From: an uncultured Bacilli bacterium
GTDB lineage: Bacteria > Bacillota_I > Bacilli_A > RF39 > UBA660
NCBI GenBank assembly: GCA_944363805.1
Contig: CALVVH010000025.1
Span: forward strand, 1 to 18,134
Length of the DNA stretch: 18,134 nucleotides
Direction of reading: 5' to 3'
This document shows positions 744 through 17,830 of this stretch, piece after piece. How positions within the stretch are numbered: position 1 is the stretch's first letter; each line of letters begins with the position of its first letter. The position numbers were made by a program, and so were the translations under genes. A model generated the notes under the pieces. That model was not told the DNA's origin and did not search any database. It saw only the letters and a program-made list of their open reading frames with translations.

Positions 744-819
<76 letters not shown>

Positions 820-826
820 AAAAAAA

Positions 827-903
827 TGGCGGTTCGTACGGGATTCGAACCCGTGATCTTCTGCGTGACAGGCAGACGTCATAGGCCTCTAGACTAACGA
901 ACC
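827..903 (-). tRNA. tRNA-Asp (GTC)
   Basis: On the minus strand it starts GGTTCGT and ends ACGAACC-G-CCA. The anticodon loop is CTGTCAC, with anticodon GTC. The T arm is ACGGG-TTCGAAT-CCCGT. CCA is encoded. It lies 7 bp from tRNA-Phe and 3 bp from tRNA-fMet. Confidence 0.95.
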
Positions 904-906
904 ACA

Positions 907-983
<77 letters not shown>

Positions 984-996
984 ATGTAAAATTAAG

Positions 997-1089
997 TGGC
1001 GGAGGAAAAGGGATTCGAACCCCTGCGCCGATTGCTCGACCTCCCGGTTTTCAAGACCGGTCCCTTCAACCAGACTTGGGTATTCCTCC
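997..1089 (-). tRNA. tRNA-Ser (TGA)
   Basis: On the minus strand it starts GGAGGAA and ends TTCCTCC-G-CCA. The anticodon loop is CTTGAAAA with anticodon TGA. The long variable arm expected for Ser is present, giving 93 nt. It is the first gene of the tRNA operon, about 20 bp downstream of the predicted transcription start. Confidence 0.95.
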
Positions 1090-1264: not shown

Positions 1265-1330
1265 TAAGAAGTCTTATTCATTAAGACAAGTGCCTGCCCA
1301 AGTGGCGGAATAGGTAGACGCACAGGACTT

Positions 1331-2012
1331 AAGGCCTCTTACTAACTGTTGGAAGGCCTTGAGCACTAGTCTAGAAATAGATTATGTGAATTTGCTCAAA
1401 TTCGGGGAAACCTTACAGATAACGCTGATGGCAATCCCGAGCCAAGATTTGCGGGGGTAATTTTGAAATTAAAATACTCAAAAGATGTATTAAGTGATAT
1501 TATTTCAAATTCTATAAGCAAAAGAGAATGTTTAATAAAACTTAATTTGAAACCATATGGTGGAAATTATCGAATTCTCAATAGATATATAGAAATGTTT
1601 AAATTAGATACATCTCATTTCCTTGGACAAGGCTGGAATAAAAATAATAGTCCAGCAGATATAAAACCAATCGAAAAATGTTTTAATAACGAAATTCCTA
1701 TTACTAGTTATAAGTTAAAAAATCGCATTTTAAAGGAAAAAATCAAAAATTATAAATGCGAGATATGTGGATTAGAAAAATGGAATAATCAAAAAATACC
1801 ATTGGAATTACACCACATTAATGGAAACAACAAAGATAATAGCCTTAACAATTTACAATTACTTTGTCCAAATTGCCATGCTTTAACTGATAACTACAGA
1901 AACCGTAAATAAGGTGTAGAGACTTGACGGGCAATACCTAAGTCCGAAAGATATGGTAAAGAGAAAGTCCAGACTACAAACATTTTATGGTAGTGAAAAC
2001 TATAGTAGTAAG
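1331..2012 (+). ncRNA. Group I self-splicing intron (cyanobacterial tRNA-Leu type, IC3-like)
   Basis: The intron is 682 nt, about 232 nt without its ORF. P1 pairs exon CUU plus AAGGCC (1328-1336) with GGCCTTGAG (1355-1363), placing the required U-G pair exactly at the splice site (U1330, G1361). P2 is TAGTCTA-GAAA-TAGATTA (1367-1384). The P4-P5 core reads CGGGGAAACC, then GGCAATCCCGAGCCAAG. P6a pairs 1447-1454 with 1903-1910. The P7/P3 region reads GTAGAGACTTGACGGGC and, further on, GGTAAAGAGAAAGTCC. A TAGT-GAAA-ACTA hairpin lies in the P9 region, and the last base is G (2012). These blocks match what I remember of the Anabaena tRNA-Leu(UAA) intron almost word for word, and the insertion site is the same. 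Self-splicing is inferred. The embedded HNH gene is unusual, since introns of this type normally carry no ORF. Confidence 0.92.
1463..1912 (+). CDS. HNH homing endonuclease encoded inside the tRNA-Leu intron
   Basis: 149 residues with a TTG start. A GGGGG ribosome binding site (1453-1457) lies 5 nt before it. The C-terminal half is an HNH nuclease domain with zinc-binding cysteines: C99-x2-C102, the catalytic H117-H118, the N126-N130 region, then C135-x2-C138-H139. The middle segment S-H-F-L-G-Q-G-W-N-K (51-60) is the linker often seen in phage and intron HNH enzymes. The N-terminal third is probably a helical DNA-binding part. The likely role is to cut intronless tRNA-Leu genes and so spread the intron; the target is inferred from the location. 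The ORF fills the P6 loop. Its last codons (CCGTAAAT) form one strand of P6a, and its ribosome binding site overlaps the other. Domain structure is complete, with no frameshift, so it may still be active. Confidence 0.92.
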   Translation: MKLKYSKDVLSDIISNSISKRECLIKLNLKPYGGNYRILNRYIEMFKLDTSHFLGQGWNKNNSPADIKPIEKCFNNEIPITSYKLKNRILKEKIKNYKCEICGLEKWNNQKIPLELHHINGNNKDNSLNNLQLLCPNCHALTDNYRNRK

Positions 2013-2077
2013 AAAATCCTGCGAGTATAACAACTCGTGCCGGTTCAAGTCCGGCCTTGGGCACCAATTTAAAAATA

Positions 2078-2108
2078 AAACTGGAATAAAATCCAGTTTA
2101 TTTTTTTT
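2078..2108 (+). terminator. Terminator shared by tRNA-Leu and the convergent S1 gene
   Basis: AAACTGGA, loop ATAAAA, TCCAGTTT, then A and eight T. It starts 11 bp after the tRNA CCA. Read on the minus strand, the stem begins at the stop codon of the S1 gene (2100-2098) and is followed by TTTTATTTTT, so it can serve both genes. Confidence 0.85.
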
Positions 2109-2457
2109 GCTTTTCATATTCCTTCATCTTTTCATCAATCCATATTGGCAACATATTTTTAAGTGGCAAAAATCCCTTCCGTGATTCAACAATATGCATT
2201 CCATCATCTTCCGTCTTATAATAAATATTTTTAATTGACATCTTCATTTGTTTAGTTTCGTAATCAATATCTAAAATTTGACAATAAACAATTTCACCAA
2301 CATGGACAAAATCATTTACATCTTTGACAAATTCATTAGACACTTCAGATATATGACATAATCCAGAAAATTCGGAATCGACTAGAACAAAAAAGCCATA
2401 ATCAGTAATTCCACTGACTTTACATTCAATTATATCTCCTGTTTTATATTTTGGCAT
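2098..2457 (-). CDS. S1-domain RNA-binding protein (YugI/CvfD-like)
   Basis: 119 residues from the ATG at 2457, which has AAGAGGTG 5 nt before it. A longer frame to 2490 exists but runs through the promoter and is unlikely to be used. Residues 1-75 form a full S1 OB-fold: Y-K-T-G-D-I-I-E-C-K-V-S-G-I, then D-Y-G-F-F-V, G-L-C-H-I-S-E-V-S, G-E-I-V-Y-C-Q-I-L-D-I-D, and the closing M-K-M-S-I-K strand. The C-terminal tail has G-F-L-P-L-K-N-M-L-P-I-W-I-D-E-K. Single-S1 proteins of this length in Bacillota bind ribosomes or mRNA and act in stress or gene regulation. The protein is a paralogue of the truncated one at 1-275. It is convergent with the split tRNA-Leu and divergent from the NifU-like gene. 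Confidence 0.88.
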   Translation of the reverse strand: MPKYKTGDIIECKVSGITDYGFFVLVDSEFSGLCHISEVSNEFVKDVNDFVHVGEIVYCQILDIDYETKQMKMSIKNIYYKTEDDGMHIVESRKGFLPLKNMLPIWIDEKMKEYEKQKK

Positions 2458-2480
2458 TTCACACCTCTTAACTAATTTTA

Positions 2481-2509
2481 AGTATACCATTAAATTCTTT
2501 ACTTAACAA
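2481..2509 (-). promoter_or_regulatory. Promoter of the S1-domain gene
   Basis: On the minus strand: TTGTTA (2509-2504), 17 bp, TATACT (2486-2481). It lies inside the frame extension upstream of 2457, supporting the shorter start. Confidence 0.75.
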
Positions 2510-2526
2510 CCTCAAAGCCTTATAAT
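2498..2526 (+). promoter_or_regulatory. Promoter of the NifU-like gene
   Basis: TTTACT (2498-2503), 17 bp, TATAAT (2521-2526). The start would be near 2533, leaving a very short leader that begins at the ribosome binding site. It interleaves with the divergent S1 promoter. Confidence 0.6.
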
Positions 2527-2543
2527 ATAAGAAGGTGATTTGC

Positions 2544-2768
2544 ATGGAAGAAAAATTAAAAGATATGATTGATCAAATACGTCCTTTCTTAGTAATGGAC
2601 GGCGGCGATATTGAATTTGTTAAATATGAAGATAATTACTTATACATAAAATTATCTGGTGCTTGCCAAAATTGCATGTATCAAGATAATACTATCAATG
2701 ATGGCATTTTTGAATTTTTTAAAGCCGAAGTTCCCGAACTTGAAGGAGTTATCAACATCAATTTATAA
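2544..2768 (+). CDS. NifU C-terminal-domain Fe-S scaffold protein
   Basis: 74 residues from the ATG at 2544, with AAGGTGAT upstream. It is one NifU C-terminal (Nfu) domain: I-R-P-F-L-V-M-D-G-G-D-I-E-F-V near the N-terminus, then L-S-G-A-C-Q-N-C-M with the C-x2-C pair that binds a bridging 4Fe-4S cluster, and a final helix and strand (V-P-E-L-E-G-V-I-N-I). Proteins of this type carry Fe-S clusters to target enzymes. Length and domain content match stand-alone Nfu/YutI of Bacillota. The stop overlaps the end of the convergent kinase-like gene by 11 bp. In Bacillus, as I recall, yutI also lies in the region of yutH and yutD. Confidence 0.92.
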   Translation: MEEKLKDMIDQIRPFLVMDGGDIEFVKYEDNYLYIKLSGACQNCMYQDNTINDGIFEFFKAEVPELEGVININL

Positions 2769-5005: not shown

Positions 5006-5839
5006 CTATAAAACAATAAAAGTTACAATACCTACTAACATAATTATAGTACAAATAACACTCATTACTAAAAGGATATCAACATATCCATTACCAGAAG
5101 TAACTTTATTATTTTCTCTTTCTAAAGCTTCAATTGCTTTTTCCAATAAATATTCCTTATTAATAGCATTTTCTCTTATTTTAAAATAATCATATACTTG
5201 ATGATTTACTCTATCAAGTTCATTACTATCCATTCTATTTAAATCGTCCATTGAATAATTTAATATCTCATAAGCTTTAACATTCAAATAATGTTTTTCT
5301 TTCGGGGCAACAACTTTTACATTATCGCGCATTTGTTGTTTAAAATATTTATCTACTTCAGACACATCGGTAGCAGTCAAAAAATTATAAGATACTCGAA
5401 GTGGATTTTCAGTAAATGGTGTATATAACAATCCATAAAAATTTTTGACTTCATCTTCTGTTAAATGATAATTCATTTTTTTAGCAATGAACATATCAAT
5501 TAAATCTTTTTGAGTTACTACAAAATAAGGATTTTTCTTTTTTACATCTGCATTAATTTTTTCATTTTCCTTCTCAATATCATAATACATTTGTAAATTA
5601 CTAAAAAACACTTCTAAAGCTTCTTTAGTATATCCATACTTTGTTAAATTTTTATACAACAAATCTGGATCATTTACCACCATTGGATTGACAATATCCA
5701 ATTCACTATACATACAAATAAGCATTCTCACAACTACTACCAAAAAAGAATTATAAGTAATTCCTTGGGGTTGATCGGCACTTTTCAAATAATCATCAAT
5801 AGCTTTCGAAAAAGCTTCATTAACAAATACTTGGTTCAT
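5006..5839 (-). CDS. Unknown protein with C-terminal membrane anchor
   Basis: 277 residues, not recognised. The first 240 are soluble and mainly helical, with a charged stretch (D-I-E-K-E-N-E-K-I-N-A-D-V-K-K-K) and a Y-L-L-E-K-A-I-E-A-L-E-R-E-N coiled segment before the anchor. Residues about 251-276 form one hydrophobic segment (I-L-L-V-M-S-V-I-C-T-I-I-M-L-V-G-I-V), reaching the C-terminus, so the bulk is probably cytoplasmic. The start ATG has AGGGTGAG 5 nt upstream. It lies between yunB (33 bp) and yutD (7 bp) on the same strand and is probably in one operon with them. This hints at a sporulation or envelope role, but nothing in the protein itself proves it. Confidence 0.85.
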   Translation of the reverse strand: MNQVFVNEAFSKAIDDYLKSADQPQGITYNSFLVVVVRMLICMYSELDIVNPMVVNDPDLLYKNLTKYGYTKEALEVFFSNLQMYYDIEKENEKINADVKKKNPYFVVTQKDLIDMFIAKKMNYHLTEDEVKNFYGLLYTPFTENPLRVSYNFLTATDVSEVDKYFKQQMRDNVKVVAPKEKHYLNVKAYEILNYSMDDLNRMDSNELDRVNHQVYDYFKIRENAINKEYLLEKAIEALERENNKVTSGNGYVDILLVMSVICTIIMLVGIVTFIVL

Positions 5840-5872: not shown

Positions 5873-6601
5873 TTATTCAATGGGAATAGATAATAAATTA
5901 CTTTTTTCAATAATTGCTCCACCATAATAGGCTGGCACTCTTCCGTTGATAACTTGTGAAGAAATTAATACATCGTACTCTATTTCTAAATTACTTTTAG
6001 CAACTGGTGCTACTATTTGTTCTGTTACTTTAATAGTTACATAAAGTTCCACTAATGCGTTGTTCATTCCATATTCCCTTATCTCACTACGAATATTTGT
6101 AAGAAGCGAACCAACAAAGTTAATTTTAAAATAAATTTTAGGTCCTAAATTACTAAGTAAAACACTATCTGATGCCACCATCATTGGCATAGCCATTACT
6201 AGCCCGTTTGCACTAGAAGAAATACTCGAATCGATTTTTTCGACCACTACTCCATTTTCCATATCGGTAATTAATCGATTTAACTCGTCGGTAACTGTAT
6301 CCAAAACCATATAAGCTTTGTTTAAATCGAAATCAGCAAAAATTATTTCTCCAGCTTCATTTTTATTTATTACTAAAATATCTTTCAAGGCATCATTTGT
6401 AAATAAGTCATAACCGACATTATTACTTAAAAATGATTCTGTAAACTTCTTTAACCTTGCTTCAGCCACCGTCATAATTTTCGGTGAAATCTTAGTATCA
6501 TAAATTCGCAATAAGAAAAAAGTCAAAAAAAATATCAAAAGAAATATTACTAATAATACTTTTGATACTTTATATGTTGTTCTTATATGCAATCTTTTCA
6601 T
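5873..6601 (-). CDS. yunB: Sporulation protein YunB
   Basis: 242 residues. One N-terminal membrane segment (residues 13-32, V-L-L-V-I-F-L-L-I-F-F-L-T-F-F-L) is followed by the YunB domain. Diagnostic stretches are V-A-E-A-R, then G-P-K-I-Y-F-K-I-N-F-V-G-S-L-L-T-N-I near residue 155, Y-G-M-N-N-A-L-V-E-L-Y-V, K-V-T-E-Q-I-V-A-P and a late N-G-R-V-P-A-Y-Y-G-G. Length is close to the Bacillus protein. YunB is known as a mother-cell (sigma-E) sporulation protein whose loss impairs spores; its biochemistry is unclear. The start has no convincing ribosome binding site and lies 15 bp after the preceding stop, so translation may depend on coupling. It is one of the main reasons to call the organism a spore-former. 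Confidence 0.93.
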   Translation of the reverse strand: MKRLHIRTTYKVSKVLLVIFLLIFFLTFFLLRIYDTKISPKIMTVAEARLKKFTESFLSNNVGYDLFTNDALKDILVINKNEAGEIIFADFDLNKAYMVLDTVTDELNRLITDMENGVVVEKIDSSISSSANGLVMAMPMMVASDSVLLSNLGPKIYFKINFVGSLLTNIRSEIREYGMNNALVELYVTIKVTEQIVAPVAKSNLEIEYDVLISSQVINGRVPAYYGGAIIEKSNLLSIPIE

Positions 6602-16837: not shown

Positions 16838-17830
16838 ATGAGCAAAAGAAAAAAAAGTAGAAAAAGAAAAAGTATTTTCATCTTAATATTTATAGTATTT
16901 ATTATTGCCCTAATTGGGATAATTGCCACCAAATTTGAAGAAAGAGCTGCAGCCATAAGAGCTCTTGAACAAAGATACGAAGAACTTAGAATAGAAGCCG
17001 AAAAAATGCAAAAATACACCGACTGTTTAAATACCCCCTATAAAGATGCCAGCATAGATGATTTATTTAACCAACTTATTCAAGAACTAAATAGTAACTC
17101 TGTATCTATCTACTTTGAAGATATTGATAATGACTATTTCTTAACATCCAATGAAAACAAAAACCAATATGCCGCCAGTATAATCAAGTTATATGCGGCA
17201 GCCTACTTACTAGATAATGCTCGAAATGGCAATATCAACCTAGATGACACAATAACTTACACTAGCAATTATGCTTCTATCGCTGGCTTAAAATTAAGTA
17301 CTAGAACTGTTGGGGAAGAAATAACTCTAAGAGATCTAATCGACTATAGTATATCAGTTAGTGATAATGGCGCATATCGTATGCTTAGTGATTATATTGG
17401 TGTAAATGAACTAAAAGAATATGCCCAAAATACTTTAGATGTAAGCTTAACAATAACTCAAAGTGATAGATTTGGTTACATGAGCGTAACTGATACAAAT
17501 AAACTTTTAAATCATGTCTATAACTTCATCCAAATTGATGATGAGTACACCGACTTAATAGTTAATGCTATGAATAATACTTATTACAATGGCTTAAACT
17601 TTGATGATAAAATATTTTTACACAAGTATGGCTACTATGGCAGTTACTTTAATAACATTGGAATTTATAACTCAGGTAGTCCATATCTAATTTCCATATT
17701 TACTCTCTATGGCGATCCTGACCAAGGTGCTTTAACAAGAGTAAATGACATAAGCCAAAAAATATATGACATATATAATGCCAATATAGAAGCCAAAGAA
17801 AACTATTGCTACAATTTAGCTTATAATTAA
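16838..17830 (+). CDS. Membrane-anchored serine hydrolase of beta-lactamase/PBP fold
   Basis: 330 residues from the ATG at 16838 (AAAGTGGTG upstream); a GTG at 16826 is in frame. The N-terminus is very basic (S-K-R-K-K-S-R-K-R-K) and is followed by one membrane helix (about 12-31) and a charged coiled coil (about 32-62), so the catalytic domain would lie outside the cell. The domain has S114-I-I-K117, S175-D-N177 as in class A beta-lactamases, and K263-Y-G265 where K-T-G is usual. A clear class A E166-type glutamate is not evident. It may be an active hydrolase or a cell-wall-binding protein; drug resistance is not implied. Its neighbour UppP and anchor suggest an envelope function. It ends in a terminator. 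Confidence 0.82.
   Translation: MSKRKKSRKRKSIFILIFIVFIIALIGIIATKFEERAAAIRALEQRYEELRIEAEKMQKYTDCLNTPYKDASIDDLFNQLIQELNSNSVSIYFEDIDNDYFLTSNENKNQYAASIIKLYAAAYLLDNARNGNINLDDTITYTSNYASIAGLKLSTRTVGEEITLRDLIDYSISVSDNGAYRMLSDYIGVNELKEYAQNTLDVSLTITQSDRFGYMSVTDTNKLLNHVYNFIQIDDEYTDLIVNAMNNTYYNGLNFDDKIFLHKYGYYGSYFNNIGIYNSGSPYLISIFTLYGDPDQGALTRVNDISQKIYDIYNANIEAKENYCYNLAYN

Follow-up and report, generated by a model that had tools for sequence, protein, structure and literature searches.

Introduction

The group I intron in the tRNA-Leu(UAA) gene of cyanobacteria and plastids is the textbook ancient intron, an ORF-less element of subgroup IC3 whose vertical descent is cited as an example of very great age. 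Cyanobacteria also have a tRNA-fMet intron with the endonuclease I-Ssp6803I, reportedly described by Bonocora and Shub; this is likewise a group I intron in an anticodon loop with an endonuclease of its own, in that case of the PD-(D/E)XK type. Introns of this kind are understood in terms of the homing cycle model, in which an empty site is invaded and the invader later decays.

Excerpts of the published literature place the tRNA-Leu(UAA) intron in most cyanobacteria (PMC4476775) and assign the tRNA group I introns of bacteria to cyanobacteria, alpha- and beta-proteobacteria (PMC4033280). A putative group I intron outside cyanobacteria lies in the tRNA-Leu-TAA genes of Beggiatoa and Thiomargarita; the Thiomargarita gene, at 353 bases (17090-17442), is too short to hold the 450-nt ORF described below, and the excerpt of that paper reports neither an endonuclease in the tRNA nor mobility (PMC4853749), whereas the intron described here has an HNH gene. 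I-PfoP3I is, as here, an HNH homing endonuclease in a group I intron, that of a phage, but its intron sits in a protein gene (PMC3428280, in part), as did all phage introns known to the excerpted 2014 review (PMC3984707); among our loci, phage tRNA-Leu genes carry HNH introns. No tRNA intron of Bacillota is named in the part consulted of a 2025 paper on a database of group I introns (PMC11835236), and among the matches listed in a search of the open-licence literature there was no report of an HNH-bearing tRNA-Leu(UAA) intron and none of a tRNA-Leu(UAA) intron in Bacillota.

The present study concerns an 18,134-nt stretch of DNA, the window, from a gut Bacilli bacterium. An earlier note, made from the letters alone, had proposed that a cyanobacterial-type group I intron splits a tRNA-Leu(UAA) gene in a low-GC spore-former. 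The description of the host was borne out by a GC content of 0.30 and by a Spore_YunB match (PF09560, 71.6 bits) at 5873-6601 of the window; its order would, by size and gene content, fit RF39, members of which are predicted, in an excerpted report, to be able to sporulate (PMC10868615).

Results

The split tRNA-Leu(UAA) gene and its surroundings

With introns allowed, ARAGORN reported a tRNA-Leu(taa) that spans 1296-2066 and is interrupted behind base 35 by 682 nt of intron, whereas the default run without introns missed the split gene. Exon 1 ends in ...CAGGACTT (1330), the intron begins with AAGGCC and ends in ...GTAAG (2012), and exon 2 begins with AAAATCCTG; the spliced exons would read ...CAGGACTTAAAATCCTG... 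across the junction. The 5' exon is identical in L001, L004, L005, L007, L008 and L177, and the joined exons are a close match to the unsplit tRNA-Leu(UAA) genes found in relatives from the host's order. Eight such copies, at seven loci, were compared; seven read CAGGACTT/AAAATCCTG over the insertion point and the remaining one reads GGGACTT/AAAATCCC. The ARAGORN prediction and the intronless relatives agree in placing the intron between U34 and A35, which is the insertion site of the cyanobacterial tRNA-Leu(UAA) intron, and both this position and the joining of the exons into a tRNA-Leu had been read correctly in the earlier note. At L003, around 5540-5560, the 3' exon is absent after the P9 region, unlike in L009, through either a deletion or an assembly error.

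The positions of the features are collected in Table 1. Genes for the S1 and NifU-like proteins adjoin tRNA-Leu in the window, in L001, L002 and L010, and in nine of the ten intronless loci (L202-L211); they were not found by tRNA-Leu in L003-L008. A tRNA-Ser-Met-Asp-Phe cluster adjoins tRNA-Leu at several loci, both intron-bearing and intronless. Because the tRNA-Leu of the window, L001, L002 and L010 lies beside the same tRNA cluster and S1/NifU-like genes as in intronless relatives, the intron appears to have entered a resident gene, although the orthology of the insertion site is clearest for some loci only. The tRNA-Leu of the window is inverted with respect to its tRNA cluster, an arrangement not seen in L008 or in most intronless loci. 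Two S1-domain frames, at 6-257 and 2098-2490, flank the tRNA genes of the window and are 49% identical over the matched part.

Table 1. Features of the window around the split tRNA-Leu(UAA) gene. A slash within a sequence marks the splice site.
Feature	Position	Strand	Basis
tRNA-Phe, -Asp, -Met, -Ser cluster	744..1089	-	ARAGORN; also adjoins tRNA-Leu in intronless relatives
tRNA-Leu(UAA) 5' exon, ending at U34	1296..1330	+	ARAGORN, introns allowed; near-identical in intronless relatives
Group I intron (682 nt) ending in G2012	1331..2012	+	ARAGORN with introns; R2 and R3 models
P1: CUU/AAGGCC (1328-1336) with GGCCUUGAG (1355-1363)	1328..1363	+	Sequence; R1 and R2 consensus structures
P3: UUGCUC with GGGCAA, pseudoknot	1392..1397 with 1929-1934	+	Covariation, 82 distinct introns
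P4: UUCGGG (1401-1406) with CCCGAG (1436-1441), P5 within	1401..1441	+	Covariation
P6a: AUUUGCGG with CCGUAAAU (last HNH codons)	1447..1454 with 1903-1910	+	6 distinct Bacilli versions
HNH endonuclease ORF, 149 aa, TTG start	1463..1912	+	Pfam HNH; PHROG 10822
P7: GACUU (1921-1925) with AAGUC (1965-1969), around P8	1921..1969	+	Covariation
P8	1935-1938 with 1955-1958	+	Read from sequence
tRNA-Leu(UAA) 3' exon, CCA encoded	2013..2066	+	ARAGORN with introns; intronless relatives
CvfD-like S1 protein (-) and NifU-like gene (+, by reading)	2098..2768	-, +	Downstream neighbours

The ribozyme core

The Rfam group I search, which the earlier note had suggested as a check, fell short on the window itself, where RF00028 scored 24.0 bits (E 9e-4) against a gathering score of 50; at gathering scores Rfam reported plain tRNAs but no RF00028, both in the window and at 12 related loci. 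Tested on 10 genomes with ORF-bearing tRNA-Leu introns, RF00028 did not have these introns among its matches, but an ORF-deleted sister intron at the same site (genome G326) scored 63.7 bits, above the cut-off. The weak score on the window is probably due to the 450-nt ORF, and we therefore built models of our own from introns of other groups, with no Bacilli sequence in either: R2 (28 rows) for the 5' half of the intron and R3 (32 rows) for the 3' half with exon 2. R2 matched the window only at 1321-1446 (88.2 bits, E 2e-19) and R3 matched it at 1912-2066 (140.4 bits, E 1.5e-40), the E-values being rough, as the tool itself states; the three other R3 matches in the window reached at most 12 bits, and two of them lay over plain tRNA genes at 744-1093. 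With both halves matched, the resemblance to these introns is far beyond chance.

The pairings of the core were examined by covariation in a set in which 104 of 141 introns were usable and 82 were distinct (an earlier set had 102 of 116 usable and 30 distinct); the core of the window passed the filter of the 82-intron set. P3 was paired in 98.6% of cells over 82 distinct introns (shuffled mean 51%, maximum 62%), P4 in 98.4% over 82 (shuffled maximum 90.9%), P6 in 100% over 82 (shuffled maximum 92%) and P7 in 99.8% over 80 (shuffled maximum 94.8%), the shuffles carrying no correction for relatedness. P1 places a U-G pair, U1330-G1361, at the 5' splice site, and the last intron base is G2012, as in group I introns. 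The P3-P7 pseudoknot and the P4-P6 core, together with the model matches, identify the window intron as a group I intron, and the conserved P4 and P7 blocks, the splice-site U-G and the terminal G that the earlier note had pointed out all proved to be as described.

P6a is paired in 45 of 48 cells among the six distinct Bacilli versions, and one of its pairs varies between G-C, A-U and G-U. Since one strand of P6a consists of the last HNH codons, the end of the ORF would, on these few sequences, also serve the ribozyme.

The HNH gene inside the intron

The ORF occupies the P6 loop, with a G-rich, Shine-Dalgarno-like run at 1453-1457 ahead of its TTG start. Its product matches Pfam PF01844 at 23.1 bits (cut-off 21.4) and the HNH family PHROG 10822 at 150.8 bits, and has 1728 homologues; the HNH and cysteine residues are invariant in 33 of these, picked among 120 listed of the 1728. 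The gene is under purifying selection (dN 0.032 and dS 0.585 between the window and L001). In a confident AlphaFold2 model of the protein (pLDDT 90.1, pTM 0.57), the N-terminal part is helical and the C-terminal part holds the HNH fold. Searches of the PDB gave loose matches only, by sequence (E 0.21 at best) and by fold (Foldseek E 4.5e-3 at best, with McrA), and a plasmid search with the HNH protein gave no match. In a protein tree with a bootstrap that was still unsettled, the HNH sequences of the Bacilli, 11 in all, fall into a single clade (100/100). In the database proteins P0016, P0018, P0024 and P0069, N-terminal extensions resemble the translated P4-P6 core.

Alleles and the probable need for splicing

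Of 385 genomes sampled from the host order, 272 had the intact intronless motif AGGACTTAAAATCCT, and the seven that carry the intron all lacked it. A looser intronless tRNA-Leu(UAA) motif, RGGACTTAAAATCCY, was found in 0 of 11 intron-bearing genomes; a copy without the intron may be missed in MAGs. Counted over 20 of the 25 ORFs listed for the window, 228 of the 460 Leu codons are UUA. Because the motif is missing from all 11 intron-bearing genomes, the decoding of UUA probably needs splicing, as the earlier note had expected if the host had no second copy of the tRNA.

Among relatives of the host the site occurs as empty, full, frameshifted and ORF-deleted alleles. The HNH gene is frameshifted in L009 and L010, the latter also with a changed cysteine, and a shortened 96-aa form of the protein (P0061) was found on 53 contigs. 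In the ORF-deleted allele, L177, a stretch of about 413 bases is gone from the ORF, and both strands of P6a and the first codons are retained. The empty, full, frameshifted, shortened and deleted alleles fit a homing cycle; some of the decayed HNH alleles could be assembly errors. The frameshifts in L009 and L010, the missing part of the 3' exon of L003 and the weak RF00028 score of the window are what one would expect of a dead gene, that is, a decayed intron in a tRNA pseudogene. We regard this as scarcely credible for the window, given that its exons are intact and its core conserved, that P3, P4, P6 and P7 covary and that the intronless motif is lacking in all 11 intron-bearing genomes.

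Distribution in the Bacilli

The intron model matched 32 of the 385 genomes of the host order. Seven of these carry the tRNA-Leu intron, at 90-97 bits, whereas the other 25 reached only 34-56 bits; G002, G006, G008 and G009, which lie outside the 385-genome sample, carry the tRNA-Leu intron too. ARAGORN placed 16 of 23 weaker loci (L179-L201) in tRNA-Thr(UGU) or tRNA-Tyr(GUA), gave four others different labels and gave three none. In the phylum sample three of 392 genomes matched, all three of them also matched in the order search, and in the class sample five of 296; both samples overlap with the host order. The tRNA-Leu intron is patchy in the host order (7/385), and it is not inherited throughout the lineage. 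The expectation of the earlier note that Bacillota would hold few or no cases is roughly sound for the phylum sample (3/392) and fails for the host order, in which the intron model matched 32 of 385 genomes.

The tRNA-Tyr intron of a related Bacilli locus, L163, carries a PDDEXK_5 gene (61.3 bits) and in this respect resembles the I-Ssp6803I case. Group I introns of adjacent tRNA-Thr(UGU) and tRNA-Tyr(GUA) genes lie back to back in related Bacilli, at L163 1925-2927, L164 1538-2180 and L190 1148-1765. At L251 1333-2124, from the same class and outside the order sample, the interior of a tRNA intron resembles, by eye, a different HNH gene.

Vertical descent and recent transfer

One possible explanation of the patchy distribution is that the intron is old and vertical, with a single gain at the root of this Bacilli group and many later losses, and that the HNH gene is an immobile leftover. 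An RpoB tree of 29 rows divides the intron-bearing genomes between two clades (99/100 and 92/97), as this explanation would have it; the tree lacks G008, which had no RpoB match, and G017, whose RpoB is a fragment, and for G002, a mixed MAG with two RpoB copies, the contaminant G002a (branch about 5) was ignored and the Bacilli copy (L247) used. Between the two clades the HNH dS is about as large as the RpoB dS, and the single HNH clade of the Bacilli (100/100, with the bootstrap not settled) points in the same direction.

Comparisons of third codon positions within the same contigs gave a different picture. Five pairs were compared, the HNH gene against non-overlapping flanking frames; because gene and flanks come from the same contigs, the comparison sidesteps the problem of the mixed MAG in the pair G001-G002. 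For L001 and L002, the HNH gene differs at 1 of 149 third positions and the flanking frames at 327 of 900 (p 3e-25); for L003 and L005 the numbers are 0 of 149 and 285 of 929 (p 3e-22). Overlapping frames led to the same result for these two pairs. The contrast is smaller for the window and L001 (33 of 149 against 307 of 800, p 1e-4), for the window and L002 (33 of 149 against 327 of 814, p 2e-5) and for L004 and L006 (25 of 149 against 256 of 762, p 3e-5), and at 4-fold sites HNH gene and flanks of L004 and L006 showed no difference (p 0.57). The HNH dS is 0.01 and 0.00 where the RpoB dS is 0.38 and 0.86, and such near-zero HNH values occur in only 2 of 21 genome pairs, one of them G001-G002 with its mixed MAG. 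Identity profiles drop at or shortly beyond the tRNA gene; between the window and L010, nucleotide identity is 97-100% within the gene and has dropped to 71-76% at a distance of about 1 kb.

Near-identical HNH genes within diverged flanks of the same contigs show, as judged from these substitution counts, recent intron transfer in two of the five pairs, and with the empty sites of relatives these islands of identity point to movement of the intron into intronless alleles. Horizontal transfer, one of the two histories suggested in the earlier note, is borne out by these two pairs. The 0-1 differences in 149 third positions, set against about a third in the flanks, the very patchy 7 of 385 and the purifying selection on the HNH gene together make the old vertical intron an improbable account of the whole pattern, provided that the islands of identity are not artefacts of assembly. 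Between the two clades, an older vertical stay or an older transfer may lie behind the similar HNH and RpoB dS.

The HNH family and related introns in other phyla and phages

A profile search of genome contigs with the HNH protein, of which the best 80 of 392 relatives were kept, gave with the window 81 genomic loci; the HNH gene lies inside a group I tRNA intron in 59 of them and beside one in 9, and in 13 none was recognised. Among 80 viral loci kept of at least 524, it lies inside in 15 and beside in 24, and 41 have no recognised intron tRNA. All 161 loci together have 33 beside and 54 without a recognised intron tRNA; L003 and L009, missed by ARAGORN, were placed inside the intron by reading. 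Within these kept loci the family is found in or beside tRNA introns, mostly of tRNA-Leu(UAA), in several phyla and in phages, and in this sense the wider history that the earlier note had offered beside transfer also holds.

The place of the gene varies among the kept loci. It lies in P6 in sense direction in the Bacilli and three others; in P6 antisense in Proteobacteria, Acidobacteriota, Chloroflexota, Fermentibacterota and phages; in the P1/P2 loop in sense direction mostly in Bacteroidota and phages, and also in L073; and in further loci outside the tRNA gene. L032, L048, L139 and L147 were taken as P6 from the position and strand of the ORF, and L068 by reading. In many of L011-L048 (mostly Gammaproteobacteria, also Acidobacteriota and Chloroflexota) the P6 HNH gene is antisense to the tRNA. 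In L029, L033, L034, L037, L041, L052, L063 and L071 it lies just outside a tRNA-Leu with a small intron, which would fit a free-standing partner nuclease.

A 595-kb phage record without annotation (LR756511.1; L248 2812-3598) has a tRNA-Leu(UAA) gene with a 700-nt intron and the HNH gene inside it. The viral contigs L098, L109, L111, L123, L126 and L127 also have a tRNA-Leu(UAA) intron with an HNH gene inside. Dulem virus 42 (H2) was considered as an intron carrier and rejected, as its HNH gene is present with no adjacent group I core motif. At L083 2451-2719 a phage tRNA has a CUU/AAAA loop and an intron, and its body lacks the long variable arm that marks tRNA-Leu. Where ARAGORN labels phage or P1-inserted genes as Ser, Phe, Tyr or Lys, as it does for some, it seems to have misread the CUU/AAAA loop; L073, L083 and L100 were read by eye.

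The variety of these positions raises the alternative that the HNH protein is a free-standing nuclease which merely shelters in tRNA introns, the introns themselves moving with phages or by flanking recombination. The varied placing of the family, in both orientations within P6, in the P1/P2 loop and also beyond the gene, would agree with it, as would the 41 of 80 kept viral loci without a recognised intron tRNA. With 59 of 81 kept genomic loci inside a group I tRNA intron and the island of identity centred on the intron, we consider it unlikely, though the least so of the alternatives weighed here.

From 141 introns, 129 cores were extracted for a tree, 108 of them distinct; a separate core extraction lost 25 of the 141. 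The Bacilli tRNA-Leu introns group (95/89) with introns from the tRNA-Thr and tRNA-Tyr genes of their own order, with one intron from Bdellovibrio and with one from a phage, and this group adjoins an Anaerolineales intron (96/90); deeper forks are unsure. The intron of L017, titled Klebsiella pneumoniae, groups with those of uncultured Gammaproteobacteria, and its MAG may be mislabelled or mixed.

The cyanobacterial type proposed in the earlier note fared unevenly. The insertion site agrees with it, whereas the relatives found are from other Bacilli, Proteobacteria, Acidobacteriota, Chloroflexota, Bacteroidota and phages, in a comparison made up of introns from outside the cyanobacteria. The shared U34/A35 site would be explained if the classical cyanobacterial tRNA-Leu(UAA) intron had been transferred into Bacillota. 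The closest introns among the kept loci, in a core tree of introns from other bacteria and phages, are those of Bacilli, Chloroflexota, Proteobacteria and phages, and the titles of the kept genomic HNH loci name no cyanobacterium as host (viral records carry no host); on this set we hold such a transfer to be improbable.

Discussion

The window intron looks like a live homing intron and not simply a stray cyanobacterial one. We strongly favor a reading, drawn from the sequences, that combines a self-splicing ribozyme, HNH-driven spread, recent movement between species and later decay of the ORF. As the core and exons suggest, the RNA would fold into a P1-P9 ribozyme whose guanosine-dependent self-excision links U34 to A35. 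The HNH protein made from the ORF in the P6 loop may cut or nick intronless tRNA-Leu(UAA) genes at or near CAGGACTT/AAAATCCTG, and repair would copy the intron with its ORF into the cut gene. By this route the intron would have moved recently between species of one Bacilli group, as the two pairs with islands of identity indicate. Once the target is filled, the ORF would decay by frameshift or deletion; these states are seen, and their cause is our interpretation. The ribozyme would be retained, presumably because the sole copy of the tRNA needs splicing.

The window intron shares with the tRNA-Leu(UAA) intron of cyanobacteria and plastids the tRNA, the insertion site and a group I core, and differs from it in the HNH gene in P6, the Bacilli host and the recent transfer seen here. 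It differs from the I-Ssp6803I system in having an HNH rather than a PD-(D/E)XK gene and in residing in tRNA-Leu rather than tRNA-fMet. The presence in the intron of the HNH gene, on which the earlier note is silent, shifts the picture from a relic to a mobile element.

A broader hypothesis, which we put forward as tentative and hold to be less probable than its opposite, is that a single homing family, ribozyme and HNH gene together, targets the anticodon loop of tRNA-Leu(UAA) across many phyla and phages, with large phages as shuttles and with an HNH gene that has changed place more than once, to lie sense or antisense in P6, in the P1/P2 loop or beyond the gene. If this is true, then the ORF-less intron of cyanobacteria and plastids would be an immobilised branch of a still mobile family and not its source.

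According to an excerpt of its description, tRNAscan-SE 2.0 was not designed for the detection of group I introns (PMC8450103). Genes of this kind escape plain tRNA finders, so that MAGs and phages may be judged, in error, to lack a UUA-decoding tRNA. A mobile tRNA-Leu(UAA) intron with its own endonuclease, of which related Bacilli show empty, full, decaying and ORF-deleted alleles, would make the homing cycle directly testable, and the same allele series would allow a test of what a ribozyme costs its host when it sits in what seems to be the sole UUA-reading tRNA.
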